This document shows, piece after piece, positions 11,955 through 39,534 of a stretch of DNA of 63,077 nucleotides. A program made the position numbers and the translations under genes. The notes under the pieces are model-generated. The model was given only the letters and a program-made list of their open reading frames with translations, was not told the DNA's origin and searched no databases. Positions within the stretch are counted from its first letter, which is position 1. The number at the start of each line of letters is the position of its first letter. The DNA is from Deltaproteobacteria bacterium. Its GTDB lineage: Bacteria > Myxococcota_A > UBA796 > GCA-2862545. The stretch spans positions 1-63,077 of the forward strand of contig JAFGVK010000048.1 of assembly GCA_016938035.1 (NCBI GenBank). Reading direction: 5' to 3'.

Positions 11955-12406
11955 GACCCACTCCAAGCCGGCGGGATCGGGTCGCGCGGCGCGCGCCCGG
12001 AGGGCTCCGTCGGTGGGCTCTGACCCGAGAGAGGCCGCGTCGGCGCGCCCCTCTCCACGCCCCGCCGGCAAACGCTATCACGGTTCTTCCATACCTTTCG
12101 GAGCGGCCCTGCGCTCGTCCTCCTCGCCGGCGGCGGGGACGGCGCCCCCCTGGGCCGCGCTCCCGGGGAGCACCGATGGGCTGGCCCCTCGACGCGTGTC
12201 CTTGTTCCCACGCTCGTCGCGCACCAAAGCACGCTCTCTCCCCAGGGAACAGCGGCTTCACGCCGACAGGCCTAGCGACTCGGCGCCCGTTGACCGTCTG
12301 GAAGCTTCGACGAGCGCCTTCGTCTGACTGTTCCTATGGAAGGATGAAGCGATTCTCGGGAGCCTGTCCGGCTGGTGGACCGGTGCGCTCCCGGGAGCGC
12401 GGGCGC
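11955..12406. other. Intergenic region between convergent genes, holding MITE-like copy B
   Basis: 452 bp between the ends of the beta-helix gene (+) and the kinase-ATPase gene (-). About half is element copy B (12168-12387). The left part (11955-12167) is GC-rich with short G/C inverted repeats near 11972-12005 but no T tract; I see no gene in it. Confidence 0.5.
12168..12387 (+). repeat. MITE-like 218-bp element, copy B, with perfect 8-bp target duplication
   Basis: Full-length copy in the same orientation as A and C. Inner blocks are GACGCGTGTCCTTG, TCGTCGCGCACCAAAG, TAGCGACTCGGCGCCCGTT and GTGGACCGGTGC. The termini are GAGCACCG and CGGTGCG, slightly drifted from GGCACCG/CGGTGCC. The flanks are CTCCCGGG at 12160-12167 and CTCCCGGG at 12388-12395, an exact 8-bp direct repeat. 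Because that target is nearly palindromic, the ends also look like a longer inverted repeat. Confidence 0.85.
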
Positions 12407-15400
12407 TCAGGCCCCGCTCAGCAGCGCGCTCATCTTCCCATGCAGGGCCCGCTCGTCCTCTAGCCTGCCCAGCAGCTTGAGCTGGTGGCGGGCGTGCTGC
12501 CCCGCGAGGCGGAGGGTGTTCACCCAGCGCTCCTGATAGGCCGCGTCCGCGATCAGGAGCAGCAGGGCCACCACGTCCTGATCCACGTACTTGTCTAGCC
12601 CTAGCTCCGCCGCGGACCACAGCCAGCGGTAGGTGGAGTCCTCGTCTCCCCGCTGCGCGAGCATCGCCGCGACCACCAGGCGGTAGGGCGCCCAGAGCCA
12701 GTGCTCGGGGATGCGCTGGAGGAAGTGGGCGGTCTGGCTCGCCTGCTCGTGCAGGGCGTCGAGGTCGCCGCGCTCCAGGGCCACCATCGCCAAGCCGAGG
12801 CTCGCGAGCACCGCCCCGTCGAAGGACCGGATCTTGCGGGCCCAGCGCAGGTGCTCCTCGTACAGGGGCGCGGCCTTGCCCACGTCGCCCATCGCCCTGC
12901 TCAGCTCGGCCAGGCTCAGGCGCGCGTCCATGACCACGGGGGTGGCCCCCAGGCCCTCGGCGATCTGCAGCGCCTCCCTCACCTGCTCCAGCGCCTGGTC
13001 CAGCGCCCCCTGCTGCCGATCCACCGCGGCGAGGCCCAGCAGCACCCGCGCGTAGCCCAGGCGGTCGCCCAGCTCGAGGAAGTCCTCCCCCGCCTCGGCG
13101 TACAGCTCCTCCGCCACCTTGAATTCCCCCGCGTGGCGCGAGAGGAAGGCGTGGCCCATCGAGGCCTCGGCGGCACCGCGCGCGTCGCCGTCCTGCCGGC
13201 AGCGGTTGAGCGCCTTGGTGAACAGCACGTCGGCGCCCCCCAGGTTGCGCTGCTGCTGCTCCAGCCAGGCCAGCCCCTGGATCGCCCGGGCCTCGATCGC
13301 GATGTCCCCCGCCGCCTTGGCCCTCCGCTGGGCCGAGGTGAACCTGCGCCGCGCGTCGGCGAGGTCTCCCGCCTGCCGGGCTGCCTCCCCCAGGCCAAGC
13401 AGCGCCTCTACCAACCCGAGCCCGTTCCCCTCCGCCTCGAACAGCGCCCGCGCCCGATCGTGGGCCCGCCAGGCCTCGCGCGCCACCCCCCTGCGCTGCC
13501 AGGCCCTGCCCCGCCAGAAGTAGGCCCACCCCGCGCCGGCCCCCTGATCGCCCATCTCGCCCGCGGCCTTGACCGCCATCGCCGAGGCCTCGTCGAGCTC
13601 GTCGGCCCTGCCCTCGCTCCACGCCTGCTTGCAGGCGGGGATCAGGTCGGCGAGGGCCATGCGCCAGGCCCGCCCCTCGTGGGCGTGGCGCCCCACCTGG
13701 AGGTGTACCGACACGTTCTGAGCGCGCCCGTAGCGGACCCAGGCCCGCGCGAGGCGCAGGTGGAGCCGGTGGGCGTCGGGGCGGTCCTCCGCCTGCCCCC
13801 GGAGCGCCTGGTGGAGCAGCCCGTGGTCGAAGCGGAGCCAGCCGTCCTGCTCGGTCCACAGGCCGCACACCCTGGCAAAATCCTGGAGCTCGTGCCCGGC
13901 GATGGGGAGGAACAGCTCCACCGGGATCTGCTCCCCTACCAACGCGACGGTGTGCACCAGGTCCCAGAAGGCGTCCGGCAGCCCCGAGGCGGCGCCGAGG
14001 GCGTCGACCCGGTCGAAGAACAGCGCCTCTGCGTCGGCGGGGAGGGCCTTGTCCGGGTCCACCCCCTCGACCAGGCCGTACTGCAGCCCGCCCTTGTCCT
14101 CCAGCCAGCCGCGCTCCACCCACTCGATCAGCAGCTGCTTGGCGAAGAGCGGGTTGCCGTCGCAGCGCTCGGCGAGGCGGTCCGCCAGCTCCGTGGTCAG
14201 GGTGAGGGACTCGGAGATCAGCTCCCTGGTGCCGTAGCGGCTCAGGCGGGGGAGGTCTACCCGCGAGGCCCCCTGCTCCACCAGCGCGGCGAGCTTCTCG
14301 TCGATCTCTGGGTGCTGCGAGAGGTCCTCGGAGCGCAGGGTGGCGAAGACCAGCACCTTGCGCCGCTCCCCGTCCCGCTCCGAGCGGAGGATCTTCTCGG
14401 CGATCTCGAGCCCGTCACCGTCCTCGCGCGCCCAGTGGACGTTGTCGAGGAACACCACCGACAGGCCGCGCCAGGTGCGCGCGTCCAGGTGGCGGTAGAC
14501 CTCCTGCAGGCCGTAGCCCGCGGCCACGGTCTCCTCACCATCCCTGGCGAGGCCTGCCCACCTGGCGAGCACCGCGGCCTCCTCGCGCACCGCCTCGTCC
14601 ATCCTGCCGCGCTCGCGCCCGAGCCTGCGCCGCAGGCGCATCTCCAGGCTGGGGCGGCTCTCGTTCCAGGGGCGGATCAGCTGGCGGGCGGCGCCGGCAT
14701 AGCCGTCCTCCTTGCCGGGGGGATCCTGGTAGCTGAGGGCGAGGGGCTCGGCCCAGCCGCCCTCCTCCAGGGTCCAGAGCAGGTCCTGGATCAGGTGGGT
14801 CTTGCCAGACCCCGCCTCGCCCACCACGAAGACCACCCTGCTCCGCCCGTCCTTGGCCACCGCCCGGACCTGGTTCCACAGCTCAGCGCGGAAGCGATCC
14901 CGCCCGACGAGGGGCAGCTCCCGCACCGCGAACAGCGGCAGCGAGGCGCGCGCCACCGCGCCAAACCCGCGCTGGAGCGGCGGTCGCCGGGGGATCCGAC
15001 CGGGGATGGGTCTGTTCCACCGGGGTACCTCAAAGACCGGCGCGTCGTCTTCCTGGTCTGAGCCCGGCGGGGCGCCGTCCGCGCCAGACGCCCCCCCGCT
15101 GTCGGGGAAGGACGCGAAGGAGCGGGCCACGGTCCCGTCCGCGCGCCCCTCCGCCGGGAGCCTCCCCGCACCCTCTGGGGAGGCGAGGGCCAGCAGCTCG
15201 GTGCGCAGGTCCGCGGCGAGGTCGTAGCGGGCCAGCGGCTCGGGGTGGAGGAGGTTCTGGAGGATCAGCTCCAGCCCCTCCGGCACCTGCATCCCCGCGC
15301 GCGGCACCAGGGGCCCCAGCGTGTCGTCCAGCGGCGAGCGCCCGATCGGGAAGGGCAGCGCACCGGTCACCAGCTCCCACAGCACCACCCCCACCGAGAA

Positions 15401-15994
15401 CAGGTCGGTCCAGGGACCGTACTCGCGTGGGAGGCCCAGGAGCTGCTCCGGCGCCATGAAGCCGGGCGTGCCCTCCACCCGCCCCTTGCGCTGCGCCAGG
15501 GTGTTGGCGGTCTTGGCGAGCCCAAGATCGGCGAGCCAGACGTGGCGGCGCCCGTCCTCTCCCGTGTGGAGGAGGATGTTCTCGGGCTTGAGGTCGCGGT
15601 GCAGCACCCCCCGGGTGTGGAGGTGCGACAGCGCGTCGATCAGCTCCTGGGTCAGCCGCAGGGCCTCGGTCCAGGCGGGGGGGTGCTCCCGAAAGCTCGC
15701 GAAGCTCCCCGCGTCCGCGAAGGCAAGCCCCAGAAAGGGCGTCCGATCCGCCATCTCACCCACGTCGTGCAGCGGCACGATGTGCTGGTGGGTGAAGCGG
15801 GCCGAGATCTTCACCTCAAGGTCGAACAGCTTGCGAAAGCGCTCATCGGCCGCAAACTCTGGTTTGACCACCTTGATCGCAACCGGGACCCCGAGGACCT
15901 GGTCGATGGCCTTGAGCACGCGGCCCATCCCGCCCTCACCCAAGATGGGGTGCGAGGGATCAAGGGTGTAGCGCTTAGGTAGCTGGTGCTCCAC
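12407..15994 (-). CDS. Ser/Thr protein kinase - AAA ATPase - TPR signalling protein
   Basis: A 1195-residue protein from GTG. Residues ~1-280 are a Hanks-type kinase: Gly loop GEGGMG (19-24), Lys41 in VAIKVVK, HRDLKPEN with catalytic Asp134, DLG (156-158) in place of the usual DFG, and an APEQ activation-segment end. After a Pro/Asp-rich linker, an AAA_16-type ATPase follows with Walker A GEAGSGKTH near residue 391 and a VVFLDNVHWA Walker B. The last ~500 residues are helical TPR-like repeats. This plan is that of MalT/LuxR-like STAND regulators with a kinase sensor, common in Myxococcota. It is cytoplasmic, with no membrane segment. The kinase residues are intact, so it is probably active. 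Substrates are unknown; the nearest genes do not identify a pathway. Confidence 0.92.
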   Translation of the reverse strand: MEHQLPKRYTLDPSHPILGEGGMGRVLKAIDQVLGVPVAIKVVKPEFAADERFRKLFDLEVKISARFTHQHIVPLHDVGEMADRTPFLGLAFADAGSFASFREHPPAWTEALRLTQELIDALSHLHTRGVLHRDLKPENILLHTGEDGRRHVWLADLGLAKTANTLAQRKGRVEGTPGFMAPEQLLGLPREYGPWTDLFSVGVVLWELVTGALPFPIGRSPLDDTLGPLVPRAGMQVPEGLELILQNLLHPEPLARYDLAADLRTELLALASPEGAGRLPAEGRADGTVARSFASFPDSGGASGADGAPPGSDQEDDAPVFEVPRWNRPIPGRIPRRPPLQRGFGAVARASLPLFAVRELPLVGRDRFRAELWNQVRAVAKDGRSRVVFVVGEAGSGKTHLIQDLLWTLEEGGWAEPLALSYQDPPGKEDGYAGAARQLIRPWNESRPSLEMRLRRRLGRERGRMDEAVREEAAVLARWAGLARDGEETVAAGYGLQEVYRHLDARTWRGLSVVFLDNVHWAREDGDGLEIAEKILRSERDGERRKVLVFATLRSEDLSQHPEIDEKLAALVEQGASRVDLPRLSRYGTRELISESLTLTTELADRLAERCDGNPLFAKQLLIEWVERGWLEDKGGLQYGLVEGVDPDKALPADAEALFFDRVDALGAASGLPDAFWDLVHTVALVGEQIPVELFLPIAGHELQDFARVCGLWTEQDGWLRFDHGLLHQALRGQAEDRPDAHRLHLRLARAWVRYGRAQNVSVHLQVGRHAHEGRAWRMALADLIPACKQAWSEGRADELDEASAMAVKAAGEMGDQGAGAGWAYFWRGRAWQRRGVAREAWRAHDRARALFEAEGNGLGLVEALLGLGEAARQAGDLADARRRFTSAQRRAKAAGDIAIEARAIQGLAWLEQQQRNLGGADVLFTKALNRCRQDGDARGAAEASMGHAFLSRHAGEFKVAEELYAEAGEDFLELGDRLGYARVLLGLAAVDRQQGALDQALEQVREALQIAEGLGATPVVMDARLSLAELSRAMGDVGKAAPLYEEHLRWARKIRSFDGAVLASLGLAMVALERGDLDALHEQASQTAHFLQRIPEHWLWAPYRLVVAAMLAQRGDEDSTYRWLWSAAELGLDKYVDQDVVALLLLIADAAYQERWVNTLRLAGQHARHQLKLLGRLEDERALHGKMSALLSGA

Positions 15995-16221
15995 GCCCGG
16001 CCTTCCACTTCGTGCTGTGCGCCGAACCTCAGCGCAATGTCGAGGAGATCAGAGGGGGCCCCTCACCCGCCATTCTAGCCGGTTCGCCCCGTGCAGGAGG
16101 GTGCAAAATTGCCGACGGGGCGGTCTGCGCTGGCGACCTCGACGGTATCCCCGACGCTTTCTCCACGGGGTAGCCTAGCGGCCCTCAGATCCGCTATGGT
16201 GCTCACTGTCTGGAGGCCGCC

Positions 16222-17076
16222 ATGCAGCTCCCCCTGGTTGAGCAGATTCGAGAAGCGCGCCGCCTGGCGGAGGAGGCAGCCGCTGCCTTCAAGGACTTCA
16301 ACATGCTGGGCGCGACGCTCACCACGATTGAGATCCTTGAGCTCCGACTGGCGAGGTTCACATCCCTCAAGACCGACATCCCAGGGACCAGCCTGGTCGC
16401 GGAGGTCTCTGCGCGGTGGGACGAGCTGGGTTGGATGCAGGGGCAGATCCCCTCTGGGGACACCCCCTTTGAGGTGGCGCTCCCCAGGCAGCGCGCCCTG
16501 GTAGAGAGCGCGCGATCCCACCTCAAGGACCTCGCTGACACCTCCGAGGAGCGCACCCACCACCTCGCGCACCTGCAGGAGGAGCAGCAGGCGCTCCTCG
16601 CGGCGCCGGTCTACGCTCAAGCGGTGGAGGACCTGCGCACCATCGGCGCAGAGCGGGAGGTCGCGGCGCACGCGATCGGCCCTCTCCGGCACCGCCTCTC
16701 GCTGGTGGAGCCCTCCCGGGCGGTCATCTCCCACCTTCGGGGCAAGCTGGACCAGGAGCTGGAGCTGCTCCAGAGGCGCCCGGACGACAAGGGCGTCCAT
16801 CGGGCCCGCACGGTGTCGATGATGCACACCATCCTCGACTCCCTCGGGGCGATGCTCAAGCAACAGGGGCTGGAGCTCGCGCTCCCCGCCATGCCGGAGG
16901 TGACGGTGTCCACCGAGGTGGCGGACATCCTGAGCGCGGGCGCCGCCCTCAACCAAGAGCTCGGCGAGCTGCTGGCAGACTTCAACACCCTCGGCGAGCG
17001 CCTCGGCAGGGAGGAGGCAGAGATCGCCCGGCAGCTGGACAGGCTCACCAAGCAGCTGGTCGAGCGGCTGGGATGA
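16222..17076 (+). CDS. Coiled-coil protein of unknown function
   Basis: A 284-residue, almost wholly helical protein rich in Leu, Glu, Arg and Ala with heptad-like patterns (IREARRLAEEAAAAF; EEAEIARQLDRLTKQLVERLG). No signal peptide or membrane span. The ATG codes MQLPLVEQ. The stop codon overlaps the start of the downstream exported phosphatase gene by 4 bp (ATGA at 17073), so they are translationally coupled. No family recognised; a cytoplasmic scaffolding role would be speculation. Confidence 0.8.
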   Translation: MQLPLVEQIREARRLAEEAAAAFKDFNMLGATLTTIEILELRLARFTSLKTDIPGTSLVAEVSARWDELGWMQGQIPSGDTPFEVALPRQRALVESARSHLKDLADTSEERTHHLAHLQEEQQALLAAPVYAQAVEDLRTIGAEREVAAHAIGPLRHRLSLVEPSRAVISHLRGKLDQELELLQRRPDDKGVHRARTVSMMHTILDSLGAMLKQQGLELALPAMPEVTVSTEVADILSAGAALNQELGELLADFNTLGERLGREEAEIARQLDRLTKQLVERLG

Positions 17077-17846
17077 TCCGTGCCCTGCTCGCTGGGGCGG
17101 GAGTGGCCATAGCGCTCCCCGCCCTCGCCGGCCCCGCGCTGGCGCAGGGCCGGTGGTCGCCAGAGGTGTACGCCTCGCTGGTCGCGATGCTGGAGGCGCC
17201 CACCGCGGGGCGGCAGGTGGCGGTGCTGGACTGGGACAACACCTGCATCCGGGGCGACGTGGGCGAGACCCTGCTCAGAGTCCTCGACGCCCGGGACGGC
17301 GGCGCGCGGCACCTCTCCTACGAGGCGCTCTGCGCCTCAGAGGGGCCCATGCGCTGCTACGCCTGGGCGGCGGGGGTGCTGGCGGGGCGCACCGAGGCAG
17401 AGGCGCGGGCGCTAGGCGACGAGGTGATCGCCGAGGGGCTGGCCTCCGGAGCGCTGGAGGAGCGCGAGGAGCTGCGCGACCTCATCCACGCCCTCCACCA
17501 GCGGGGCTGGGAGGTGTGGATCGTCTCAGCGTCGGCGCAGCCGGTGGTGCAGGCCTTCGCCAGCAGGTACGGCGTCCCAGCCGAGCGCGTGATCGGGGTG
17601 CGCCTCACCCTGGACGATCAGGGTGTGCTGCAGCCGGACCTCGCCGAGCCCCTCACCTACCGGCGGGGCAAGGTGTACGCGATCCAGCACCACATCGGGC
17701 TGGCACCCGCCTTCGCGGCGGGGGACACCGTCACCGACATCGAGATGCTGCTGGAGGCTCCACAGGTGCTGCTGATGGACCGCGGAGACCTTCAGCTCCG
17801 CGCGCTCGCCGCCCAGCACGGGTGGTGGACACAGCCGGCCTGGTAG
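17073..17846 (+). CDS. Exported HAD-superfamily phosphatase (phosphoserine-phosphatase-like, subclass IB)
   Basis: A 257-residue protein with a typical signal peptide (hydrophobic core VAIALPALAG, likely cleavage after PALA). HAD motifs in order: motif I DWDNT (nucleophile Asp53, acid Asp55), motif II VSAS, the motif III Lys in RRGKV, and motif IV GDTVTDIEM. The helical cap between motifs I and II resembles phosphoserine phosphatase-like enzymes (type IB). It would hydrolyse a phosphate monoester in the periplasm, which is less usual for this subclass. It overlaps the coiled-coil gene by 4 bp. Substrate unknown. Confidence 0.87.
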   Translation: MIRALLAGAGVAIALPALAGPALAQGRWSPEVYASLVAMLEAPTAGRQVAVLDWDNTCIRGDVGETLLRVLDARDGGARHLSYEALCASEGPMRCYAWAAGVLAGRTEAEARALGDEVIAEGLASGALEEREELRDLIHALHQRGWEVWIVSASAQPVVQAFASRYGVPAERVIGVRLTLDDQGVLQPDLAEPLTYRRGKVYAIQHHIGLAPAFAAGDTVTDIEMLLEAPQVLLMDRGDLQLRALAAQHGWWTQPAW

Positions 17847-17884
17847 CCGGACGATGGGAGGATGCGATAGGCGAACAGGGGTGG

Positions 17885-18103
17885 ATGCCGCCAGGAGCGG
17901 GTGAAGGCAGCGGGAACGGGAGCTGGCGGCTGCGGTGGAGGATGGTGCTCCTGCGCCTGGTCGAGGTGGAGGTGGAGAGCGAGCTCACGATGGACATGGC
18001 GATGCACGCCCAGCTGGGGCGCAGGCTGCGCCTCCGCGCCGCGCTCCCCAGGGTCCGCCGCTCCCTCAACCTGCGCTGGCGCGGCCCGGCCGCGGAGGCC
18101 TGA
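17885..18103 (+). CDS. Possible small basic protein (weak)
   Basis: A 72-codon frame just after the HAD phosphatase, with an internal ATG at 17942 that would leave 53 residues. The inner part (VLLRLVEVEVESELTMDM) has a plausible amphipathic pattern and the end is Arg-rich. A GGTGGAGG lies before the internal ATG. It resembles nothing I know and may be chance; it is listed because it lacks the Pro/Gly/Arg look of most spurious frames here. Confidence 0.25.
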   Translation: MPPGAGEGSGNGSWRLRWRMVLLRLVEVEVESELTMDMAMHAQLGRRLRLRAALPRVRRSLNLRWRGPAAEA

Positions 18104-19148
18104 GCGGTCCCAGCCGCCGCCCATCGGAGCGCTCGCCGGGGCGCCTGCTGCGGCGTCACGGCACCGACGCGCTGGCCTCTCGACGCGGGTCCTGCTCCTG
18201 CGCTCGTCGCGCACAGGAGCGCGCTTCGTCCCCAAGGGACGGCGGCTACGCGCCGATTTGCGTAGCGACTCGGCGCCCGTTCTCAGGCTGGAGGACTCGA
18301 CGAGCAAGCTCATCGGAGGGTTCTTGTGGAAGGATGAAGCGGCTCCGGTGTGACGGTCGGGCTGATGGACCGGTGCCGACGTCCCCCTGGGGCGCGCGCG
18401 GGGCAGGCGCCTCCCCCCCGAGGACTACGCCCCCACCGGGCTCGCGGTGCGCTGCTCGCGGCTTGTACCACCGGTCCACTGCGATGACCGAGGCCTCTAC
18501 GGCCCCGGTGGCCCTCACACCCACCCGATCCGGAGCATCACCCCATGGCCGAAGGGTCTGTCCGTCTGGCGCTGTGGACCGGCTCACCGCCACTTCGACG
18601 GAACGTTGCATACTTCCGTTGTTGTTGCGCACCAAGAGCTCCGTCCAGTGAGAGGGACCGGGCTACCGTTCCACCAGGTACAGGCGAGCCACCTCTGAAC
18701 CACCGGTCAGGACCACCGGCCCATGCGTCCGCTCGCGGCAGCCGTCGATTCACATGGTGTGATCCTGCGCTATGAACGATGTCGCGATCATCGTGACCGA
18801 TCGGCTCGGGAGCAGCGCCCCGCGCCGGGCCCGGGGAGCCTCGCGGCAGGGTGGAAAAACGAACGAACCACCGTGATCGACGCATGCCTCACGCTCCGCA
18901 CCGAGCGCTGGGTCATGCTGAGCCTTGGGCGAGCGGGTGGGTCCACGAGGTTGTGCGCTCGGACCCGATGACCTTCCGGTCGGATGCGGTGCCTTGGAGC
19001 CCCCACGGGCGGAGCGCAGAGGTCCAGGGCGGCGAGGGCGAGGAGGACGGAAGGAAGCGAACGCTCGTTCGCGACAGACGCAAGCGAGCGCAGCGAGCGG
19101 CCGACAACGCCCTCGGCGCCCTGGGCCCAGCGATCCGGAGCCCGTGGG
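18104..19148. other. 1045-bp intergenic region between convergent genes, holding MITE-like copy C
   Basis: Apart from element copy C (18160-18377), no gene, RNA or terminator is recognised. Around 18467-18725 there are several ACCACCGGTC/ACCACCGGCCC-like words and a TTGCGCACCAAGAG segment recalling the element's interior, possibly a badly decayed relative. At 19068-19098 lies a short GCGAGCG-type inverted repeat. The local base mixture is less GC-extreme than in the flanking genes. Confidence 0.45.
18160..18377 (+). repeat. MITE-like 218-bp element, copy C
   Basis: Full-length copy with near-consensus ends: GGCACCGACGCGCTGG on the left and GATGGACCGGTGCC on the right, giving inverted termini GGCACCG. 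The inner blocks TCGTCGCGCAC, GCGACTCGGCGCCCGTT, CTCGACGAGCAA and TGGAAGGATGAAGC match the other copies. Flanking octamers GGCGTCAC (18152-18159) and GACGTCCC (18378-18385) agree at 6 of 8 positions, as expected for an eroded target duplication. Confidence 0.85.
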
Positions 19149-26409: not shown

Positions 26410-26627
26410 GGCACCGGTCCATCCGTCGGACGGTGTCCCAAGATGGGCTTTATCCTTCCATAAGAACCATCCGACGAGGTTGCTCGTCGAGGCTTCCGAG
26501 CCGTACACGGGCGCCGAGTCGCCTGCATATCGGCGTGTCACCACCGTTCCCCAGGGAGGACGGGTACTCTTGTGCGCGTGGAGCGTAGGGACAAGGCCCC
26601 GCGTCGAGACGCCAGCGAATCGGCGCC
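26410..26627 (-). repeat. MITE-like 218-bp element, copy D (inverted)
   Basis: Full-length copy in reverse orientation. The left end reads GGCACCGGTCCATCCG and the right end CGGCGCC. Internal blocks CTTCCATAAGAACCATCC, GACGAGGTTGCTCGTCGAG and ACGGGCGCCGAGTCGCC match the reverse complement of the others. Flanks GGCAGGAC (26402-26409) and GGCAGTAC (26628-26635) agree at 7 of 8 bases, a near-perfect target duplication. Confidence 0.87.
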
Positions 26628-26710
26628 GGCAGTACCAGGGCGCGTCTCCGTGGAGCCCCCAGCCGCCGCTGCCGGTGGTGCCCCGGACAGGGCGGCGTTA
26701 GCAGCGGCCC

Positions 26711-28188: not shown

Positions 28189-28224
28189 TCGTCGCTCCGC
28201 TGGCTGTCTCTGCAGCCACACTCT

Positions 28225-28254: not shown

Positions 28255-28340
28255 GCCCGCCGGTGATGTCTCAATCCCCCCCTATGCGGAGGCCCTGCAA
28301 GCGGTATAGTCTTGCAAGCCAGAACCCCGGAGAGGCTAAG

Positions 28341-29228: not shown

Positions 29229-29278
29229 CGCGGCCCCTGTCCTGTTGTAGGCTGTCCTTCCTTCTCGGGGTGTTGTCG

Positions 29279-30655: not shown

Positions 30656-31845
30656 GAAATGTCCAGGCGGCGCGCACCGCGGCCGCGGTAGTCATCATCG
30701 GGTTGGACCGTGACACCCTGGGGCTGGTACGCGAGGCGCTCGCCGCAGAGGCGGTGCTCCCCTCCTCTTCCACGGCCTTCGGGGACGCGATCACCGTGGT
30801 CAAGCGCAACAAGCCTGACGTGGTGCTCGTGGGCTTTCAGGAGCACCTGGACGCGGCCCTCAACCTGGGTGAGGTGCTCCAGCGGGAGGCCCCCAACGTC
30901 ACCCTGGTGGCCCTCGCGACCGCGAGCGACGCCAGCACCATCCTCGCCGCGATGCGGGTGGGCTACAAGGAATACGTGGTGCTCCCGGCCGACGTGGAGC
31001 GGCTGCGCAAGGCGGTCCACCAGGCGGCCTACTCCGGAGACCTGGAGGAGGACAAGGGCCTGGTGGTGTCGGTGTGTGGGGCCAAGGGAGGGGTGGGCAC
31101 CACCACCCTGCTGAGCAACCTCGCCGCCGAGCTGGGAGCCATCCACAGGGTCATCGCCCTGGACCTCGACTTCTCGATGGGCGACGTCGCGCCGATGCTC
31201 GACCTGAACCCCAAGGACACCATCGCCGACGTGCTCCCGCGGGCCAGCAGCATGGACGAGCGGCTGCTGACGGGCGCGGTGGCGGTGCACCGGACCAAGG
31301 TCCACGTGCTCGCCCAGCCCGGAGACCTGTCCATGCTCGGCGACGTGGTCCCGGACGACATCTTCTCCATCATCAACTCCGCCGCCAAGGGCTACCAGTT
31401 CGTGCTGATGGACATCGGCACCCACTTCGACGAGCCCTCAGAGATCGCCCTGAGCGTCTCGGACATGGTCCTGCTGGTCACGACCCCTGACGTGATCTCC
31501 GTGCGAGACGCCTTCCGCCGGATCAAGCTGCTGGAACAGCTCGGGGTGGAGGCGGATCGCATCCGCCTGATCTTGAACCGGGACCACAAGGGCGCCTACG
31601 TCAGCCAGGCCAACATCGCCTCCAGCCTGCAGATGGAGATCGCGGCGGTGATCCCGAACGACTCCAAGGTGGTCGACCAGGCGATCAACCAGGGCCGCCT
31701 GATCCGCGAGATCAACCGCAAGAGCGACGTCGCCCAGAGCATCTCCACCCTGGTGGGGCTGCTCACGCACAGCGACGAGGACAGCCCAGAAGAGGCCGAG
31801 GAGGAGAGCAAGGGCTTTCTCTTTGGAATGTTCGGAAAAAAGTAG
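30652..31845 (+). CDS. cpaE: Tad pilus localisation ATPase CpaE/TadZ
   Basis: A 397-residue protein from a GTG overlapping the cpaC stop. Residues ~10-125 are a receiver-like domain (VVIIGLDRDTLGLVREAL; VDVERL-type end) in which I do not see the full set of phosphorylation residues, as is usual for TadZ. A ParA/MinD-type ATPase follows with deviant Walker A CGAKGGVGTTT and VIALDLDFSMGD. It positions the Tad machine at the cell pole. Low-similarity acidic tail (DEDSPEEAEEESKGFLFGMFGKK). 21 bp before cpaF. Confidence 0.92.
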   Translation: MRNVQAARTAAAVVIIGLDRDTLGLVREALAAEAVLPSSSTAFGDAITVVKRNKPDVVLVGFQEHLDAALNLGEVLQREAPNVTLVALATASDASTILAAMRVGYKEYVVLPADVERLRKAVHQAAYSGDLEEDKGLVVSVCGAKGGVGTTTLLSNLAAELGAIHRVIALDLDFSMGDVAPMLDLNPKDTIADVLPRASSMDERLLTGAVAVHRTKVHVLAQPGDLSMLGDVVPDDIFSIINSAAKGYQFVLMDIGTHFDEPSEIALSVSDMVLLVTTPDVISVRDAFRRIKLLEQLGVEADRIRLILNRDHKGAYVSQANIASSLQMEIAAVIPNDSKVVDQAINQGRLIREINRKSDVAQSISTLVGLLTHSDEDSPEEAEEESKGFLFGMFGKK

Positions 31846-31866
31846 CGTACAGCGAAGAGGTCTTCA

Positions 31867-33231
31867 ATGGGTGGAAGTCGACTGCTCGATCGTGTCAAGG
31901 GTGCGCAGGGTCGCTACAGGACCGGCGCGGCGCCGAGCGGCGGAGGCATGGCCCAGAACTCTGAGGAGTTCAAGAGGATCACCCACGAGCTGCACAACGA
32001 GCTGCTGGAGTCGCTGGACTTTGAGCAGGTCAGCAACACCGCTCGTGAGGAGCTACAGGCCCGGCTGCGGGTGACGCTGGCCGAGCGGATCGAGTCGCGG
32101 CAGCTCCCACTCAACCGCATGGAGCGCGAGCGGCTCGCGGACGACATCCTCGACAACATCCTGGGCCTGGGGCCGCTGGAGCAGATCCTCCGCGACCCAG
32201 AGGTCTCGGACATCATGATCAACGGCCCCTCGGTCGTCTTCGTCGAGCGCAAGGGGAAGCTGGTCAAGACCAACATCCAGTTCAACGACAACGACCACCT
32301 CAAGCAGATCATCGACCGCATCGTCGCCGCGGTGGGGCGGCGCGTCGACGAGACCATGCCGATGGTGGACGCGCGCATGGCGGACGGATCGCGCTTCAAC
32401 GCGATCATCCCCCCCCTCGCCCTCGACGGCGCCGCGGTGTCCATCCGGCGGTTCGGCACGGTGCCCATCGCCGCAGACGACCTCGTCGCCCTAGGCTCCG
32501 TGCCCCGCCCGATCATGGAGGTGCTCAGGGGCGCGGTGCGCTCCAAGCTCAACATCATCATCTCCGGCGGCACCGGCTCTGGCAAGACCACCCTCCTCAA
32601 CGTGCTCTCGTCCTTCATCCCCGATGGCGAGCGCATCATCACCATCGAAGACTCAGCGGAGCTGCAGCTGCAGCAGGACCACGTCGTGCGCCTGGAGACC
32701 CGCCCAGCCAACCTTGAGGGCAAGGGCGAGGTGAACCAGCGCGAGCTGGTGAAGAACTGCCTGCGGATGCGCCCAGACCGGATCATCCTCGGCGAGATCC
32801 GCGGCGCCGAGGCGATCGACATGCTCACCGCCATGAACACGGGCCACGACGGCTCCCTGGCGACGGTCCACTCCAACAACACCCGTGACGCCCTGGCGCG
32901 CTTCGAGACCATGGTCGGCATCGGCATGCCCAACATGTCCGACAAATCCATCCGCGAGACCATCGCGCGCGCGCTGGACATCGTCATCCAGCTCGACCGG
33001 CTGCCGGACGGGACCCGCCGGATCATGGCGGTCACCGAGGTGACCGGGATGGAGGGGCCGGTCATCACCTCCCAGGACATCTTCGTCTTTCAGCAGAGCA
33101 CCATCGACGAGAACGGCAAGGTGCGCGGCAAGTTCAAGGCCACAGGCGTCCGGCCACGCTTCGCCTCCAAGCTGGCGGCGAACGGGATCCGCCTCGCGCC
33201 CGAGCTGTTCCGCTTCCAGATGGAGGTCTAG
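31867..33231 (+). CDS. cpaF: Tad pilus assembly ATPase CpaF/TadA
   Basis: A 454-residue secretion ATPase of the GspE/VirB11 superfamily. Walker A GGTGSGKTT near residues 234-242, the Asp box IITIEDSAEL, Walker B ILGEIRGAEA and the His box HDGSLATVHSNN are all present. The N-terminal domain contains LGPLEQILRDPEVSDIMINGP, typical of CpaF. It powers pilus extension, and in many Tad systems retraction, at the inner-membrane face. The stop codon shares a base with the tadB GTG start. Confidence 0.95.
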   Translation: MGGSRLLDRVKGAQGRYRTGAAPSGGGMAQNSEEFKRITHELHNELLESLDFEQVSNTAREELQARLRVTLAERIESRQLPLNRMERERLADDILDNILGLGPLEQILRDPEVSDIMINGPSVVFVERKGKLVKTNIQFNDNDHLKQIIDRIVAAVGRRVDETMPMVDARMADGSRFNAIIPPLALDGAAVSIRRFGTVPIAADDLVALGSVPRPIMEVLRGAVRSKLNIIISGGTGSGKTTLLNVLSSFIPDGERIITIEDSAELQLQQDHVVRLETRPANLEGKGEVNQRELVKNCLRMRPDRIILGEIRGAEAIDMLTAMNTGHDGSLATVHSNNTRDALARFETMVGIGMPNMSDKSIRETIARALDIVIQLDRLPDGTRRIMAVTEVTGMEGPVITSQDIFVFQQSTIDENGKVRGKFKATGVRPRFASKLAANGIRLAPELFRFQMEV

Positions 33232-34175
33232 TGGGCGCGCTCTCTCTTATCGTCATGGCGGTGGTGTTCACCGCGGCCCTCGCGGTCTTCCAGAGCATGT
33301 ACTGGGGGTGGGTGTCCAAGCGGGACCAGGACGCTCAAGAGATGGTCCGCCGGCTGGGGATGGGGGACGACGACTCCCCAGAGTCGCTCTTCAGAGAGAA
33401 GGCGAAGGACGCGGCAGCCGACGCGCTGGGTGGCATAGGGGCACACCTTCAGCGCACCATCGCCCGGGCGGACGTCTCCATGTCGGTGGCCAACCTCGTC
33501 GGGAGGATGGCCTCCTTCGGGCTGGTGGGCCTGGTCGGCGGGGCCTTCTTCCTGGGGGTTGGCGGCTTCGCCGTCGCGGTGGTGGCCTCGCTGATCCCCT
33601 ATTTTCTCCTCAAGTCCAAGGGCAACAAGCGCCAGGCGGCGCTGCTGCAGCAGCTGCCCGACGCCCTCGACCTGATGGCGCGCTCCATGCAAGCGGGGCT
33701 GGGACTCACCGACACCTTCCGGCTGGTCGCGGAGGAGATGCCCCTCCCGATCGCCTATGAGTTCGCCCGCATCTTCGAAGAGATCCGCCTGGGTCGTGAG
33801 TACCGCGACGCGCTCACTAAGCTGGTGGACCGCAACCCCGACATCTTCGACCTGCGCCTGTTCGTCTCCTCGGTGCTCCTGCAGCGAGAGACCGGCGGTA
33901 ACCTGATCGAGGTGCTGAACAACATCTCCGGCACCATCCGAGCGCGCTTCATGTTCCAAGGCAAGGTCAAGGCGATGACCTCAGAGGCCAAGTTCACAGG
34001 CTATATCATCGCCCTCCTCCCGGTCGGCGTCGCCACCTTCGTGTCTCTGGCCAACCCCGCCTACCTCGAGCCGCTGGTCGCCGAGCCCCTGGGGTGGATG
34101 ATCCTGGGATACGCGATCAGCTCGTACTCACTGGGGCTCTTCATCATGAACCGCATGGCGCAGGTGGAGGTCTGA
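33231..34175 (+). CDS. tadB: Tad pilus inner-membrane platform protein TadB
   Basis: A 314-residue membrane protein (GTG start) with a first TM (LSLIVMAVVFTAALAVFQ), a paired TM region (ASFGLVGLVGGAFFLGVGGF), the T2SSF domain (QLPDALDLMARSMQAGLGLTDTF ... LRLFVSSVLLQRETGGNLIEVL) and two C-terminal TMs. With TadC it forms the platform of the assembly complex. Overlaps tadC by one base. Confidence 0.93.
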   Translation: MGALSLIVMAVVFTAALAVFQSMYWGWVSKRDQDAQEMVRRLGMGDDDSPESLFREKAKDAAADALGGIGAHLQRTIARADVSMSVANLVGRMASFGLVGLVGGAFFLGVGGFAVAVVASLIPYFLLKSKGNKRQAALLQQLPDALDLMARSMQAGLGLTDTFRLVAEEMPLPIAYEFARIFEEIRLGREYRDALTKLVDRNPDIFDLRLFVSSVLLQRETGGNLIEVLNNISGTIRARFMFQGKVKAMTSEAKFTGYIIALLPVGVATFVSLANPAYLEPLVAEPLGWMILGYAISSYSLGLFIMNRMAQVEV

Positions 34176-35095
34176 TGGGCGGGATTTTCTCAAGCCAGGC
34201 GCTCGCGCTGGGTGGTGGGTTCGTCATCCTGTTGGCCCTCATCGGGCTGGCCTACGCCGGCTGGACGCTCCTCAACCCGACGCGCACGGCCTCTGACCGG
34301 CTCCACGACCTCCAGGGGAACGAGAACGAGATCCCGATCGATCCCGCCCTGGAGAAGCTCGCTGAGCGGCTGGGGTCCTTCGCCGAGACCAAGGACCAGG
34401 AGACGGTAGACCAGCTCCGCGCGAAGCTGATCCAGGCGGGCTACCGCCACAAGCAGGCGGTCCAGATCTTCAACGGGATCCGCGTCACCGGCGCCCTGAG
34501 CCTCCCGATGTTGGCCCTGCCCTTCGCCGCGTCCGCCCCCCTGATGAAGATGGCAACCATCACCATGGTCGCGGTGGCCGCCGGATACTACCTGCCCCAG
34601 ATGATCCTGAACAGCCAGGTAGAGGCGCGCCAGAAGCTCCTCGCGCGCCCCTTCCCAGACGCCCTGGACCTGCTGGTCTCATCCGTCGAGGCGGGGCTGG
34701 GGCTGGACTCCGCCTTCCAGCGGGTGGCCTCGGAGCTGGAGAGCATCGGGCCAGAGCTCTCGTTCGAGTTCAAGATGGTCAACCACGAGATCAACGCGGG
34801 CGTGTCGCGAATCGACGCCCTCAAGCACCTTCAGGAGCGCACAGGGCTCGATCAGGTCCGGTCGCTGGTGAACATGCTCTCGCAGGCCGAGCGCTTCGGG
34901 ACCTCCATCGCCCGCTCCCTGCGCATCCACTCCCACGTGGCCCGGGAGCGCCGCATGGCCGAGGCCGAGGAGAAGGCCGCGCAGGTGTCGCCCAAGCTGA
35001 CGGTGGTGATGATCCTGTTCCTGCTCCCCACCCTGATGGCGGTGCTCCTCGGCCCCGCCGCGGTGCGGATCAAGAACAACCTGCTCGACAAATGA
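34175..35095 (+). CDS. tadC: Tad pilus inner-membrane platform protein TadC
   Basis: A 306-residue membrane protein from the ATG at 34175, which lies in a TGATG junction with tadB; a longer frame starting at 34094 lies inside tadB. It has an N-terminal TM (FVILLALIGLAYAGWTLL), a pair of central hydrophobic segments, the T2SSF domain (RPFPDALDLLVSSVEAGLGLDSAF ... LVNMLSQAERFGTSIARSLR) and a final TM (VVMILFLLPTLMAVLL). Paralogue of TadB. Stop overlaps the next start (ATGA). Confidence 0.93.
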   Translation: MGGIFSSQALALGGGFVILLALIGLAYAGWTLLNPTRTASDRLHDLQGNENEIPIDPALEKLAERLGSFAETKDQETVDQLRAKLIQAGYRHKQAVQIFNGIRVTGALSLPMLALPFAASAPLMKMATITMVAVAAGYYLPQMILNSQVEARQKLLARPFPDALDLLVSSVEAGLGLDSAFQRVASELESIGPELSFEFKMVNHEINAGVSRIDALKHLQERTGLDQVRSLVNMLSQAERFGTSIARSLRIHSHVARERRMAEAEEKAAQVSPKLTVVMILFLLPTLMAVLLGPAAVRIKNNLLDK

Positions 35096-35838
35096 CAGGG
35101 CTGTGGCTGCTCGCGGCGCTGGCTGCCTGTGGGCCGCACCGGGCGGACGCCCTCCCAGAGCCTCCAAAGTGGCAGGAGCGCCACGGCGGAGACGCGCTGC
35201 GCCTGGACCTGGCCCGCGCCTTCCTGGAGCAGGGCGCGTCGCAGCGCGCCCTCGATCTGCTCGCCGAGGTGGAGGACAGGGACCGACAGCACGGCGAGCT
35301 GGTGCTGCTCCAAGGATGGGGGCTGCGCGAGCAGGGGGCGCTGGTGGAGGCAGAGGCCCTGCTGACGCGCGCGACCGAGGCGCTCCCCCGAGACGCGCGA
35401 CCCTACACTCAGCTGGGCCTCCTCTACGCCGAGGAGCAGCGCAGGGCCGAGGCCGCTGCGGCCTTCAGGCGGGCGACGGAGCTGGCTCCAGACGACGCAT
35501 CCACATGGAACAACCTTGGCTTTGTCCAGACTGCCGCGGCACAGACGGAGGAGGCGGTCGCGTCCCTTCAGCGCGCCGTGGCCCTGGACGGGAGCCAGAC
35601 GCGCTACCGCAACAACCTGGGCTTCGCCTACGCCAGCGCGGGCAGGTGGGAGGACGCGGCCTCGGCGTTCACCAGCGCCAACCCCCCGCTGGACGCCCAG
35701 CTCAATCTAGGCCTGGCCAACGAGCTGGCCGACAGGAAAGCGCAGGCCCTGGTACACTACCAGCGGGCCCTGGAGTACAATCCTTCCCACCCCGCCGCCC
35801 TCTCATCCGTCAGGCGCCTCTCCGCGGAGTCACCATGA
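35092..35838 (+). CDS. tadD: TPR lipoprotein, TadD-like
   Basis: A 248-residue lipoprotein (MTGLWLLAALAAC lipobox, Cys 13) containing about five tetratricopeptide repeats, for example PYTQLGLLYAEEQRRAEAAA and WNNLGFVQTAAAQTEEAVAS. TadD proteins of this kind are periplasmic pilotin-like factors that help the secretin. Position directly after tadC and overlapping start and stop codons on both sides support the assignment; the gene name rests on that context. Confidence 0.82.
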   Translation: MTGLWLLAALAACGPHRADALPEPPKWQERHGGDALRLDLARAFLEQGASQRALDLLAEVEDRDRQHGELVLLQGWGLREQGALVEAEALLTRATEALPRDARPYTQLGLLYAEEQRRAEAAAAFRRATELAPDDASTWNNLGFVQTAAAQTEEAVASLQRAVALDGSQTRYRNNLGFAYASAGRWEDAASAFTSANPPLDAQLNLGLANELADRKAQALVHYQRALEYNPSHPAALSSVRRLSAESP

Positions 35839-36068
35839 AGTTCCTCGCCCTCAGCGTGCTCCTCACCGGCTGCACCTCCTCCGCCCACATCGCTCCGGAC
35901 TACGGGGACGCCTATACCCAGGTGTTCACCATGCAGGCCGATCTCTCCCGAGAGTCGGTCAGCACGGACAACCTGTGGCTGAGCGGGACCGAGGCCGAGC
36001 AGATCCGCATCCGCGTCGAGGAAGCGGCGACGGACCAGGCTGCCCCGACGATCACCCTCGGCAGCTGA
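35835..36068 (+). CDS. Small lipoprotein of the Tad operon
   Basis: A 77-residue protein, lipobox LLTGC (Cys 13), followed by an acidic, Ser/Thr-rich chain (DLSRESVSTDNLWLSGTEAEQ). The ATG overlaps the TadD stop and the histidine kinase follows after 6 bp. No family recognised; it may be an operon-specific accessory such as a pilotin. Confidence 0.75.
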   Translation: MKFLALSVLLTGCTSSAHIAPDYGDAYTQVFTMQADLSRESVSTDNLWLSGTEAEQIRIRVEEAATDQAAPTITLGS

Positions 36069-36074
36069 GGGCAC

Positions 36075-37412
36075 ATGGGTCAGCGGCGCGTCCCCTCAGC
36101 CGCCTTTGTCCTCGGGATGTTCTCAGGTCTGCTCGCGGCGCTGACGGTGCTCCCCACCGCCGCCCCGCTGATCCACAGGGTCAGCGCCAGCGAGCAGCGG
36201 CTAGCCCTCTACCACGTCGACAAGGTGGCCACGCTCGCAGACCAGCTCGCCTCGCGCGGGCAGCTGAGCCTGTCCACCTTCCAGAACCTGGGCGTGGACC
36301 ACCTCACCCTCCACGAAGAGGGCGGAGACACGACCTCCTACGGCATCTCGCTGGAGTCACCGCTCCGTGATCGCGCCTGCGCCAGCCCAACGCCCTCGGT
36401 CGCGGGGCCGGACAGCAAGGGCCGCTACTGGGCGGTCACCTGCTATCAGGGCGACCACTCCCAGATCATCTCGGGGTGGATCAGCGAGCGGACCTCTCCC
36501 TTCGACCTCTTCAGCTACGTCTTCCTCCTCGCCGTGGCGGTAGGGCTGGTGACCGCGCTCGGCGTGCTCCGCCTGCTGGCCCCGATCGGCAGGGTCTCGA
36601 GGGCGCTGGAGCAGGTCAGCATGGGGGAGCGCGGGGTGCGCCTACAGAGCACCGGGCTCGCGGAGCTCGACGAGCTGGTCAAGCGACTCAACGACGCCGC
36701 GGCCACCATGGACGGGCGGGAGGAGGAGGTAGTGGGCCGGATCCAGGCCATGGATCAGCTCACCAGGATGGTCGCCCACGAGGTCCGCAACCCCCTCCAG
36801 AGCCTGGAGCTGCTCACCTCGCTGGTCGCCTCCGAGGAGGATCCCCAGGAGCGCCGGGAGATCGCGCGGTCGATCCACGACGAGATCCACGGCCTCAACC
36901 TCATCGTGCAGCGCCTCCTCAAGGAGGGGTCGCTGCCCGGGCAGCTGCGGCTCATCCAGACCGACGAGGACATGGAGACGGTGCTGCGCGGGGTGATCCG
37001 CATGCGCACCCCAGAGGCCACCGCCCACGGGGTGGCCCTGTCCCTGGTGGTGGAGCTCCCGCAGCCGGTGGTGGTGTCCATCGACCGGGCGCTGCTCAGC
37101 CGCTCCATCGAGAACCTCGTCCTCAACGGCATGCAGTTCACCCCCCGGCAGGGGGCCGTTCGGATGACGCTCAGCGAGAGCCCAGACCTGGTGCGGATCT
37201 CCGTGGAGGACAACGGCCCAGGGGTGGACGAGGCCCTCGTCGACCACATCTTCGACGCCAACATCTCCGGCCGCACCGGAGGTACAGGCCTGGGGCTCGC
37301 CCTGGTCCGCGCGGTAGTGCTCGCCCACCAGGGGGAGATCACCGTGGGGCGGAGCCCCCTGGGAGGGGCCCTGTTCACGGTGACCATCCCCCGCACAGAG
37401 AGGACCCGATGA
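36075..37412 (+). CDS. Membrane sensor histidine kinase
   Basis: A 445-residue protein with two TM helices (FVLGMFSGLLAALTVLPTAA and FSYVFLLAVAVGLVTALGVL) enclosing a ~115-residue periplasmic sensor domain with two Cys (RDRACASP, AVTCYQ). A HAMP-like linker follows, then HisKA with MVAHEVRNPLQSLE (phospho-His near 235) and the HATPase domain with N box NLVLNGMQF, G1 EDNGPGV and G2 GGTGLGLALV. Cognate regulator is the overlapping next gene. Inclusion in the tad operon suggests it senses the envelope or pilus state. Confidence 0.93.
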   Translation: MGQRRVPSAAFVLGMFSGLLAALTVLPTAAPLIHRVSASEQRLALYHVDKVATLADQLASRGQLSLSTFQNLGVDHLTLHEEGGDTTSYGISLESPLRDRACASPTPSVAGPDSKGRYWAVTCYQGDHSQIISGWISERTSPFDLFSYVFLLAVAVGLVTALGVLRLLAPIGRVSRALEQVSMGERGVRLQSTGLAELDELVKRLNDAAATMDGREEEVVGRIQAMDQLTRMVAHEVRNPLQSLELLTSLVASEEDPQERREIARSIHDEIHGLNLIVQRLLKEGSLPGQLRLIQTDEDMETVLRGVIRMRTPEATAHGVALSLVVELPQPVVVSIDRALLSRSIENLVLNGMQFTPRQGAVRMTLSESPDLVRISVEDNGPGVDEALVDHIFDANISGRTGGTGLGLALVRAVVLAHQGEITVGRSPLGGALFTVTIPRTERTR

Positions 37413-38602
37413 CCCACCGCTCCCTCCGCGTCCTCGTGGTGGACGACAACCGCTCCGGCGCCGACGCGCTCGCGAGGGTGATGCGCAAACAGGGCGACGC
37501 AGTGGACGTCACCTACGATGGGGCCTCCGCCATCCAGGCCATCGAGGGGGGGGACTACGATCTGGTGCTCACCGACCTGAAGATGGAGCCGGTAGACGGG
37601 ATGCAGGTGCTCCAGGCGGCGCGGGCCCTGAGGCCGCCGGTGGAGGTGATCGTCTTCACCGCCTACGGCGCCACCGACATCGCGGTGAAGGCGATGCGGA
37701 TGGGCGCGCGGGACTTCCTCACCAAGCCGGTCACCGTCGAGCAGATCGAGACCCGCCTCGACCGCCTGCGCACCCAGCGCGAGGACGATCCCCAGCTCCC
37801 CTTCACCGCCGGCTCCCAGGCGGGTCAGCGCCTGCTGGGGGAGCTCCAGGCCCTGGCCGAGGTGCAGTCCCCGGTGTGGCTGGAGGGGGAGATCGGCTCG
37901 GGGAGAGGGCACGCCGCCCGGACCCTGCACGCCCTCAGCGGCGCCAGCTCGGACCTGGTGATCCGCGACCTGGGTCGCGCCGACGCGCCTTGGCCCGCAG
38001 AGGGGACGGTGCTCCTCCCCAACGTGGACCAGCTCCCCCAGGACCTGCAGCTCGCCCTGCACCGCGCCCTGCTCCGCAAGCCGGAGCGGGTGCGCCTCAT
38101 CGCCACCGCCGCCCCCGAGAGCAGCCAGGCCCTGAGCGGCGGCACCCTGCGCCCGGAGCTCTACTACCAGCTCGCGGTGATCGTGGTCCGGGTCCCGCCC
38201 CTGCGGGAGCGCACCGAGGACATCCCCGCGCTCCTCACCAGGGCGATGTCCCATTTCGCCGACCGATACCTCAGGACCGCCCCGGAGGTGCAGCCCAGCA
38301 CCCTGCAGCAGCTCCAGCGGCACGGCTGGCCGGGGAACATCCGAGAGCTGATCAACCTCGCGGAGCGGGCGGTCGTGCTGGGGCAGCAGGCCCTGCAGAT
38401 CAGCACCGTCACCCCCACCACCTCCTGCCTGCCGCGCATCGAGCCGGGCTTCTCGGTGTCCGCCTGGCTGGAGTCCCAGGAGCGCATGGTGCTGGAGGAG
38501 GCGCTCCGGATCGCCAACGGGGACCGCAACCTTGTGGCCCGCCTGCTGGGCCTGGAGCGCAACACCCTCCGCTACAAGCTCAACAAGTACGGGCTGCTCT
38601 AG
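37409..38602 (+). CDS. NtrC-like response regulator with a degenerate AAA domain
   Basis: A 397-residue protein: receiver domain (VLVVDDN, phosphoacceptor Asp56 in LVLTDLKM, Thr/Lys in FTAYG and LTKPV), a sigma-54-type ATPase-like domain, and a C-terminal Fis-type helix-turn-helix (NLVARLLGLERNTLRYKLNKYGLL). The ATPase is unusual. The Walker A position reads GEIGSGRGHA, not GESGTGKE. The segment that should carry GAFTGA is missing. Walker B reads GTVLLPNVDQLP, not a GGTLFLDE pattern. The GWPGNIRELINL sensor-II motif persists. It therefore probably binds DNA and responds to the kinase but cannot remodel sigma-54 holoenzyme in the classical way. Its stop lies 7 bp before element copy E. Confidence 0.92.
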   Translation: MTHRSLRVLVVDDNRSGADALARVMRKQGDAVDVTYDGASAIQAIEGGDYDLVLTDLKMEPVDGMQVLQAARALRPPVEVIVFTAYGATDIAVKAMRMGARDFLTKPVTVEQIETRLDRLRTQREDDPQLPFTAGSQAGQRLLGELQALAEVQSPVWLEGEIGSGRGHAARTLHALSGASSDLVIRDLGRADAPWPAEGTVLLPNVDQLPQDLQLALHRALLRKPERVRLIATAAPESSQALSGGTLRPELYYQLAVIVVRVPPLRERTEDIPALLTRAMSHFADRYLRTAPEVQPSTLQQLQRHGWPGNIRELINLAERAVVLGQQALQISTVTPTTSCLPRIEPGFSVSAWLESQERMVLEEALRIANGDRNLVARLLGLERNTLRYKLNKYGLL

Positions 38603-38608
38603 CGATCA

Positions 38609-38827
38609 GGCACCGGTCCATCAGCCGGACGGTCTCCAAGGAAACGCTTCATCATTCTGTGGGAACAATCCTACGAAGTTGCTCATCGAATCTACCAGAC
38701 CGCAAACGGGCGCCGAGTCGCTAGGCCTATCAGCGTGTGGCCGCCGTTCCCTAGGGAGGAAGCGTACTTTGGTGCGCGACGAGCGTAGGAGCAAGGACAC
38801 GCGTCGAGAGGCCAGCGCATCGGTGCC
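38609..38827 (-). repeat. MITE-like 218-bp element, copy E (inverted), with perfect 8-bp target duplication
   Basis: Full-length copy with clean ends GGCACCGG (left) and CGGTGCC (right) in inverted arrangement. Flanks AGCGATCA at 38601-38608 and AGCGATCA at 38828-38835 are an exact 8-bp direct repeat. The left copy overlaps the stop of the response-regulator gene (38600-38602) and the right copy contains the stop of the GAF gene (38833-38835). Removing the element and one octamer leaves the two convergent stop codons 3 bp apart, so this is an insertion into a pre-existing junction. Confidence 0.92.
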
Positions 38828-38832
38828 AGCGA

Positions 38833-39534
38833 TCATCCCGCGGCGCCCAGCGCCACCAGCCGCTCCCCCAGCTGGCGCCCCACCTGGCGCAGCGCCTGCA
38901 GGTGCGCCCGCGAGGCCTCGAAGCCTGGGGGGGTGTTCATCACCTCCAGCACCCCCAGCACCACCTCTCCGCTCCCGACCACGACGCAGATGAGGTCCCT
39001 GGTCCGGTAGCCGGTCAGCGCGTCGACCCGCCCAAAATGGCGCTGATCACACTGAGCGTCCGGGACCGACACCGCCCTCCTGGTCCGGAGGCAGAGCCCC
39101 GCCACCCCCGTCTCGCGTGGAATTCGAACCCCCTGCAGCTCGTCCCTGGAGGGGCCGCTCGCGGCCACGAAGCGGAGGTACTCGCCCTCCAACAGCAGCA
39201 CCGCGCCGCTCTCGGCAGGCAGGATCGCCTGAGCGCTCTGCAGGGCCACCGCCCAGGCCTCGGCGGCGCTGCTCACCCCCTCAAAGGGCTCGTCGGGGAG
39301 CGGCTCCACCTCCGGCAGCTCCGGCTCCACCGCCATCGGCTGCACCACGTAGCGGCGGCCCGCCGCCACGTCATTGGCGATCACCGTGCCGTTGGGGAGC
39401 GTCTCACAGACCAGGCGCTCCAGCCCCCGCGAGACGCCCCACCGCTCCAGGCCCCGGCCCAGGGCGATCAACCAATTCTCTCCCGACACCTCGATATCGG
39501 AGTGGCTGCGCGTGGTGACGGAATAAAGGCCCAT
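38833..39534 (-). CDS. GAF-domain protein
   Basis: A 233-residue protein from the ATG at 39534, preceded by GGAGAGGAG; a longer frame to 39612 has no ribosome binding site and would run past the divergent gene start. The first ~65 residues (GLYSVTTRSHSDIEVSGENW ... NGTVIANDV) are a small domain often seen before GAF in Myxococcota proteins (recalled, not checked). A GAF domain covers about 90-230 (SAQAILPAESGAVLLLEGEYL, TGVAGLCLRTRRAVSVPD, GVLEVMNTP). No output domain. The stop codon lies in the target duplication of element copy E, so the C-terminus was kept. Cytoplasmic sensor or adaptor by inference. Confidence 0.8.
   Translation of the reverse strand: MGLYSVTTRSHSDIEVSGENWLIALGRGLERWGVSRGLERLVCETLPNGTVIANDVAAGRRYVVQPMAVEPELPEVEPLPDEPFEGVSSAAEAWAVALQSAQAILPAESGAVLLLEGEYLRFVAASGPSRDELQGVRIPRETGVAGLCLRTRRAVSVPDAQCDQRHFGRVDALTGYRTRDLICVVVGSGEVVLGVLEVMNTPPGFEASRAHLQALRQVGRQLGERLVALGAAG

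Follow-up and report, generated by a model that had tools for sequence, protein, structure and literature searches.

A 219-bp repeat family with inverted ends and 8-bp target duplications, very probably a miniature inverted-repeat transposable element, in a deltaproteobacterial genome

Passages in PMC10969869 describe several miniature inverted-repeat transposable elements (MITEs) of prokaryotes, among them Correia of Neisseria, Chunjie of Geobacter and QMITE2 of Coxiella. These are elements of about 200 bp with inverted ends and short direct repeats, which lie between genes in around 100 copies; a foldback is commonly predicted for them, and many of their copies are decayed or shortened. In the same passages the direct repeats of QMITE2 measure 7-9 bp, and Chunjie-1 is given as 235 bp long, with 37 further copies that keep the ends and repeats. 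All of these common traits recur in the 219-bp element described here, which occurs at five places in a 63,077-nt contig (JAFGVK010000048.1, our C166; hereafter "the window", the whole stretch of DNA analyzed) of a Deltaproteobacteria bacterium assembly (GCA_016938035.1; 5.19 Mb, 246 contigs, 89% complete). In contrast to MITEs as typified in those passages, which are AT-rich, the consensus of the 219-bp element has a GC content of 59.8%. The named families were compared with the element by description rather than by alignment. Tn3-derived inverted-repeat miniature elements (TIMEs; PMC13367494, PMC4133298) are likewise short, non-autonomous units with inverted ends.

The 219-bp repeats very probably represent a single MITE with GGCAC(C/T)G ends and 8-bp target duplications, which was likely mobilized in trans and is probably decaying without selection. 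The duplication length sets the element apart from the Tn3 family, whose members duplicate 5 bp of target.

The 219-bp family, its duplications and its empty site

The copies in the window and their associated features are as follows.

1891..2402, plus strand: copy A, split into a left piece (1891-1907) and a remainder (2193-2402; right end at 2402 or 2403)
1908..2192, plus strand: 285-bp element of another MITE-like family (F4) inside copy A; this repeat recurs elsewhere in the genome
12160..12167, no strand: left target duplication of copy B, CTCCCGGG
12168..12387, plus strand: copy B, 220 bp, with a MopE-repeat protein gene on one side and a kinase gene on the other
12388..12395, no strand: right target duplication of copy B, CTCCCGGG
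18160..18377, plus strand: copy C, 218 bp; flanking octamers 6/8 identical
26410..26627, minus strand: copy D, 218 bp; flanking octamers 7/8 identical
38601..38608, no strand: left target duplication of copy E, AGCGATCA
38609..38827, minus strand: copy E, 219 bp, with a sigma-54 response-regulator gene on one side and a GAF-domain gene on the other
38828..38835, no strand: right target duplication of copy E, AGCGATCA

The initial annotation had placed the repeat at these five sites and in both orientations, and this is borne out, with copies B and C running one way and copies D and E the opposite way. Its octamer counts were also reproduced on re-reading: the flanks are identical at 8/8 positions for copies B (CTCCCGGG/CTCCCGGG) and E (AGCGATCA/AGCGATCA), 7/8 for D and 6/8 for C. 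The stop codon of the sigma-54 response-regulator gene overlaps the left duplication of copy E. Copy A had been taken for an end-to-end copy beginning at 2183; the place is real, and the element starts instead with a GGCACCG end at 1891, where 17 element bases precede the foreign insert at 1908-2192. The insert has the ends GGCCATGATCATC... and ...GATCGAGGCC and is flanked by ATCGCTGGC and ATCGCTCGC, which are identical at 8/9 positions as read by eye. The outer octamers of copy A, GCCCTCCC and CCCCTCCC, match at 7/8 positions when the right end is set at 2402 and at 4/8 when it is set at 2403.

The full host genome was searched with core, right-end and left-end patterns, allowing up to 3 mismatches. 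This gave 137 right-end, 122 left-end and 112 core matches, and none for the reversed patterns used as controls. The sample analyzed further comprised 99 fetched stretches (286 kb including the window, a part of the genome) and held 134 profile matches, partials included. Of these, 73 count as full copies, which reach each model end to within 3 positions, measure 195-230 bp and have 30 bp of flanking sequence; partial and nested copies do not enter this number. The 73 copies lie in both orientations (34 plus, 39 minus) and are spread in divergence, with 78-97% identity to the consensus. Host contigs C5, C214, C231, C233, C241 and C242 break off within copies, near positions 106-114, 187 or 30. 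The assembly was thus probably broken by very similar copies, and the genome is likely to hold more copies than were counted.

The terminal inverted repeats common to the family are GGCACCG and GGCAC(T/C)G, extending imperfectly to about 18 bp. Exact flank matches of 8 bp were found in 22 of the 73 copies, as opposed to 0.03 expected from the flanks of other copies. At other lengths, exact matches numbered 8 at 2 bp (8.1 expected), 0-2 at 3-6 bp, none at 6 and 7 bp and 1 at 9 bp, and all counts at 2-7 and 9-12 bp were within 1 of expectation. At least six of the eight flank bases are identical in 54/73 copies (about 1.3 expected). The initial annotation had held that flanks never showing 8-bp repeats would argue against transposition; the 22 exact octamers speak otherwise. 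By base counts, the targets in these 22 cases are GC-rich with no single fixed base.

Since the genomes searched included none of the same genus, an empty site was sought in nested copies. The copy at C146:15035-15253 of the host genome (G000) lies inside a 141-bp MITE and is flanked by TACGAACC and TAAGGACC (6/8 identical); another member of the 141-bp family, on C151, runs through the corresponding position with a single copy of the flank. A comparison of conserved neighbors around copy E yielded no usable empty site. Nesting also occurs in the reverse sense: 219-bp copies contain 141-bp elements on C132, C76, C151, C201 and C4, an element of roughly 282 bp on C202, and elements of the 285-bp family on C61 and in copy A of the window. 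Internal-deletion forms of 140 and 157 bp on C225 keep both ends and perfect octamers, and a 67-bp form on C18 keeps both ends with octamers matching at only 3/8 positions (all read by eye).

Pairs of ends at odd spacing could have marked full transposons; those inspected proved to be nested elements, deletion derivatives or neighboring copies, among the matches listed (about 100 of the 137 right ends and about 100 of the 122 left ends). Half elements comprising the right half from about position 106-118 were considered as mobile units in their own right and rejected, as no listed partial copy has 8/8 identity at its borders; the best border repeat was 7/8, in GC-rich flanks.

Fold and decay of the interior

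The initial annotation judged the interior to be unusually well kept and considered selection on its RNA or DNA. In a corresponding alternative, selection would act on the fold of a mobile structured RNA or DNA, and the element could be, for example, a small RNA, a terminator or a riboregulator that transposition has dispersed. The strength of the single-sequence fold is in its favor: the young consensus on the strand of copies D and E reaches -98 kcal/mol (z = -5.57), versus -79.3 (z = -2.57) on the other strand, and the left half of the element is self-palindromic. In addition, the element contains a hairpin block, TCGCGTACNNNNGTACGCTTCC, that is also present in G001, G004 and G006, genomes of three other genera in the family; there it lies in palindromes that do not otherwise resemble the MITE. 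By eye, the block often follows directly on a gene in these genomes or forms part of a tandem array, and in G001 it is repeated three times at 100-bp spacing. The pattern search located it as follows.

G001: locus L142
G004: loci L033 and L143
G006: loci L032, L037, L147 and L150

Comparison across copies points the other way. RNAalifold applied to the 73 copies retained only 2 pairs. When the founder fold (74 pairs) was imposed on the alignment, 86.1% of the cells were paired as compared with 86.0% after shuffling of the partners, and covariation was 0.093 in both cases. Slid structures paired in 33-39% of the cells with a covariation of 0.036-0.050, a gap that is expected when the structure comes from one input sequence, and they had 29-34 pairs changed on both sides versus 16 for the founder fold. 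Covariance folding thus revealed nothing above the shuffled level. Rates of change and simulated decay were evaluated on the 48 of the 73 copies that are free of length change. In the simulation, 30/48 copies fold better than their own simulated mean (means of -91.7 observed and -87.9 simulated), which would favor a selected fold; an equally slight excess is seen on the other strand (29/48), and the excess on either strand was not counted as evidence. Rfam gave no match in the window.

An unusually well kept interior is not supported by the rates of change. The change rate is about 0.13 over the 18 inner 10-column blocks (0.05-0.22) and about 0.09 over the 4 end blocks, a comparison in which the apparent conservation of ends and core is biased upwards because the copies were picked by end and core patterns. 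Relative to the young consensus, A/T sites changed threefold more often than G/C sites (0.20 and 0.066 per site). The GC content of the 73 copies correlates negatively with identity to the consensus (r = -0.72), the diverged copies being richer in GC, and the window itself has 70% GC. This preferential change at A/T sites with a rise in GC is the pattern of neutral decay from a lower-GC founder towards host composition. The course of divergence, together with pairing and covariation at shuffle level, leaves the alternative of a selected fold improbable. In the preferred reading of a decaying MITE, the strong foldback would be an inheritance from the founder that selection does not uphold.

Surroundings of the copies and other repeat families

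Copies avoid gene-like stretches, as far as the copies tested are concerned. Once the element and one octamer had been removed, a coding-like open reading frame (ORF) spanned the site of 2 of 69 copies, 4 of the 73 having been dropped for too short a flank. Random points fall in such ORFs in 1517/2000 cases (76%) in the window and in 273/718 cases (38%) in the other fetched stretches. The coding-like call is heuristic, based on stop-free length and codon-position GC with no annotation, and the low value of 38% indicates that repeat-rich surroundings explain part of the contrast. At 7821-11954, the window also encodes a protein of 1377 aa in which ten MopE-type metal-binding repeats and a match to a beta-helix were identified. 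An RNase D-like protein of the window has 6 distant related loci, at 27-40% identity.

A location mostly outside gene-like stretches, a palindromic makeup, more than 100 copies and an internal REP-like hairpin block are all features that would suit repetitive extragenic palindromic (REP), enterobacterial repetitive intergenic consensus (ERIC) or bacterial interspersed mosaic element (BIME)-like repeats, spread without target duplication, for example by a REP-associated tyrosine transposase (RAYT). Such repeats do not account for the 8-bp target duplications, the sharp inverted ends or the nested insertions, and this origin is very unlikely. The initial proposal of transposition instead of REP or ERIC dispersal is thus upheld by the duplications found across the family and by nesting. 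Segmental duplication or artefacts of metagenome-bin assembly, which the 246 contigs and the contig ends within copies might suggest, can be practically discounted, as each of the 73 copies departs from the consensus by 3-22% and 22 have perfect octamers of their own.

Three further repeat families were found in the host genome. F2, whose elements measure 141 bp and have GAGCC(A/C)CTCG ends, is a second MITE; exact duplications of 6 bp flank 6 of its 12 full copies (0.09 expected). An F2 element was also seen, by eye, within an F4 copy at C151:4332-4470. F4 elements, of about 285 bp, have GGCC(A/T)TGATCATC ends; a duplication of 8-9 bp was read by eye at C61 and at copy A of the window, and the automatic count gave 0 exact duplications among 3 full copies. 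F4 is likely a MITE. Within its members at C61 and C58, units of about 90 bp are repeated in tandem. F3, of about 282 bp, with CAGGA.../...TCCTG ends, is tentatively classed as a MITE: a 5-bp duplication was read by eye at C113, the count found none in 2 copies with a poor right-end model, and the 286-kb sample holds 20 matches, partials included. The copies located are given below.

C132:6843-6983, C76:19894-20034, C151:17861-18001, C201:9171-9310 and others: F2 copies, several of them inserted in 219-bp copies
18708..18979 of the window, plus strand: F3 copy identified by repeat matches, a neighbor outside the 219-bp family

Source of mobility and distribution

The young consensus has stops in all six frames, with a longest stop-free run of 63 codons, and any one frame is free of stops in at most 35 of the 73 copies. 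The transposase likely acted in trans and would be encoded outside the element. A DDE-type enzyme of some insertion sequence (IS) may have cut at the element ends and joined them to the target, itself cut with a stagger of 8 bp. The source element may have been lost, left unbinned or gone unrecognized, and the present copies are probably mostly inert.

The IS families ISL3, IS1595 and IS6 also duplicate 8 bp of target, as does the 219-bp element, and IS6 ends begin with GGCACTG. Descent from ISL3 is not supported, as its transposase (PF01610) has no match in the host assembly, which is 89% complete. Descent from IS1595 is not supported either: PF12762 has no match in the host genome, and in the 10 of 71 genomes of the class that do contain it, IS1595-like ends with 8-bp repeats were readable at 2 of 10 loci, where they resemble TATGCCTATCCGG and GGTGCCTATACGG and are unlike those of the 219-bp element. 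The search for 8-bp-duplicating IS elements with the same ends therefore yielded no candidate of these two families in the host. PF01609 has 4 matches in the host genome, 3 of them over the cut-off; inverted ends and 8-bp repeats were sought around these genes, and no end matching the 219-bp element was found. Two of the PF01609 loci, judged by eye from the motif, are presumably broken IS4-type fragments. The earlier statement that the window lacks a transposase holds for the 18 window ORFs that were scanned against Pfam. The partner transposase may have been lost or may not be in the bin, or it may belong to a family beyond the three searched.

Several observations weigh against the interpretation as a decaying, trans-mobilized MITE. 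The inverted ends are short and become imperfect past the first bases. Five or fewer of the eight flank bases are identical in 19 of the 73 full copies, of which at least one, copy B, scored low through a shifted end. One reverse frame, which is closed in the young consensus, is fully open in 35/73 copies. The amount of change varies along the element by more than a single rate would give (per-column mean of 5.9, variance of 44), a figure in which composition, subfamilies and constraint are not separated. Finally, no transposase with matching ends was found in a search that covered PF01610, PF12762 and PF01609, and not IS6, IS256, IS66, IS1 or others.

The consensus was compared with 63 genomes of the order, the host included and none of the others of its genus. 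No full-length match was found in the 62 other genomes, in some of which a part of the candidates was scored (e.g., 12/36 in G019, and 21/36 in a further comparison). Two other genomes of the order matched over 23-50 bp only, the source being the hairpin block noted above. Plasmids gave no match to the consensus. The exact right-end pattern is absent from genome contig and viral contig collections, and a left-end pattern from the viral contig collection; records of the host or of a near genome may have been left out of all these collections, plasmids included. A literature search, judged from titles and the openings of abstracts of the top results, retrieved no paper on the element. With no full-length match in the collections searched, the 219-bp family is very probably a new prokaryotic MITE family.

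A broader suggestion can be offered only tentatively, and it is on balance doubtful. The lineage may possess an undescribed transposase family that recognizes GGCAC(C/T)G ends and makes cuts staggered by 8 bp; it would move the 219-bp element and might also act on the GGCC-ended 285-bp family. The genome would have been invaded by no fewer than three MITE families, which interrupted each other in a readable order.

The host illustrates that a high-GC uncultured bacterium is able to hold more than 100 copies of what is very probably one MITE, with other short mobile elements nested inside. The copies form a graded series in identity, GC drift and nesting order that is usable for measuring decay and establishing the order of invasion, and the element ends could guide the hunt for the missing transposase.

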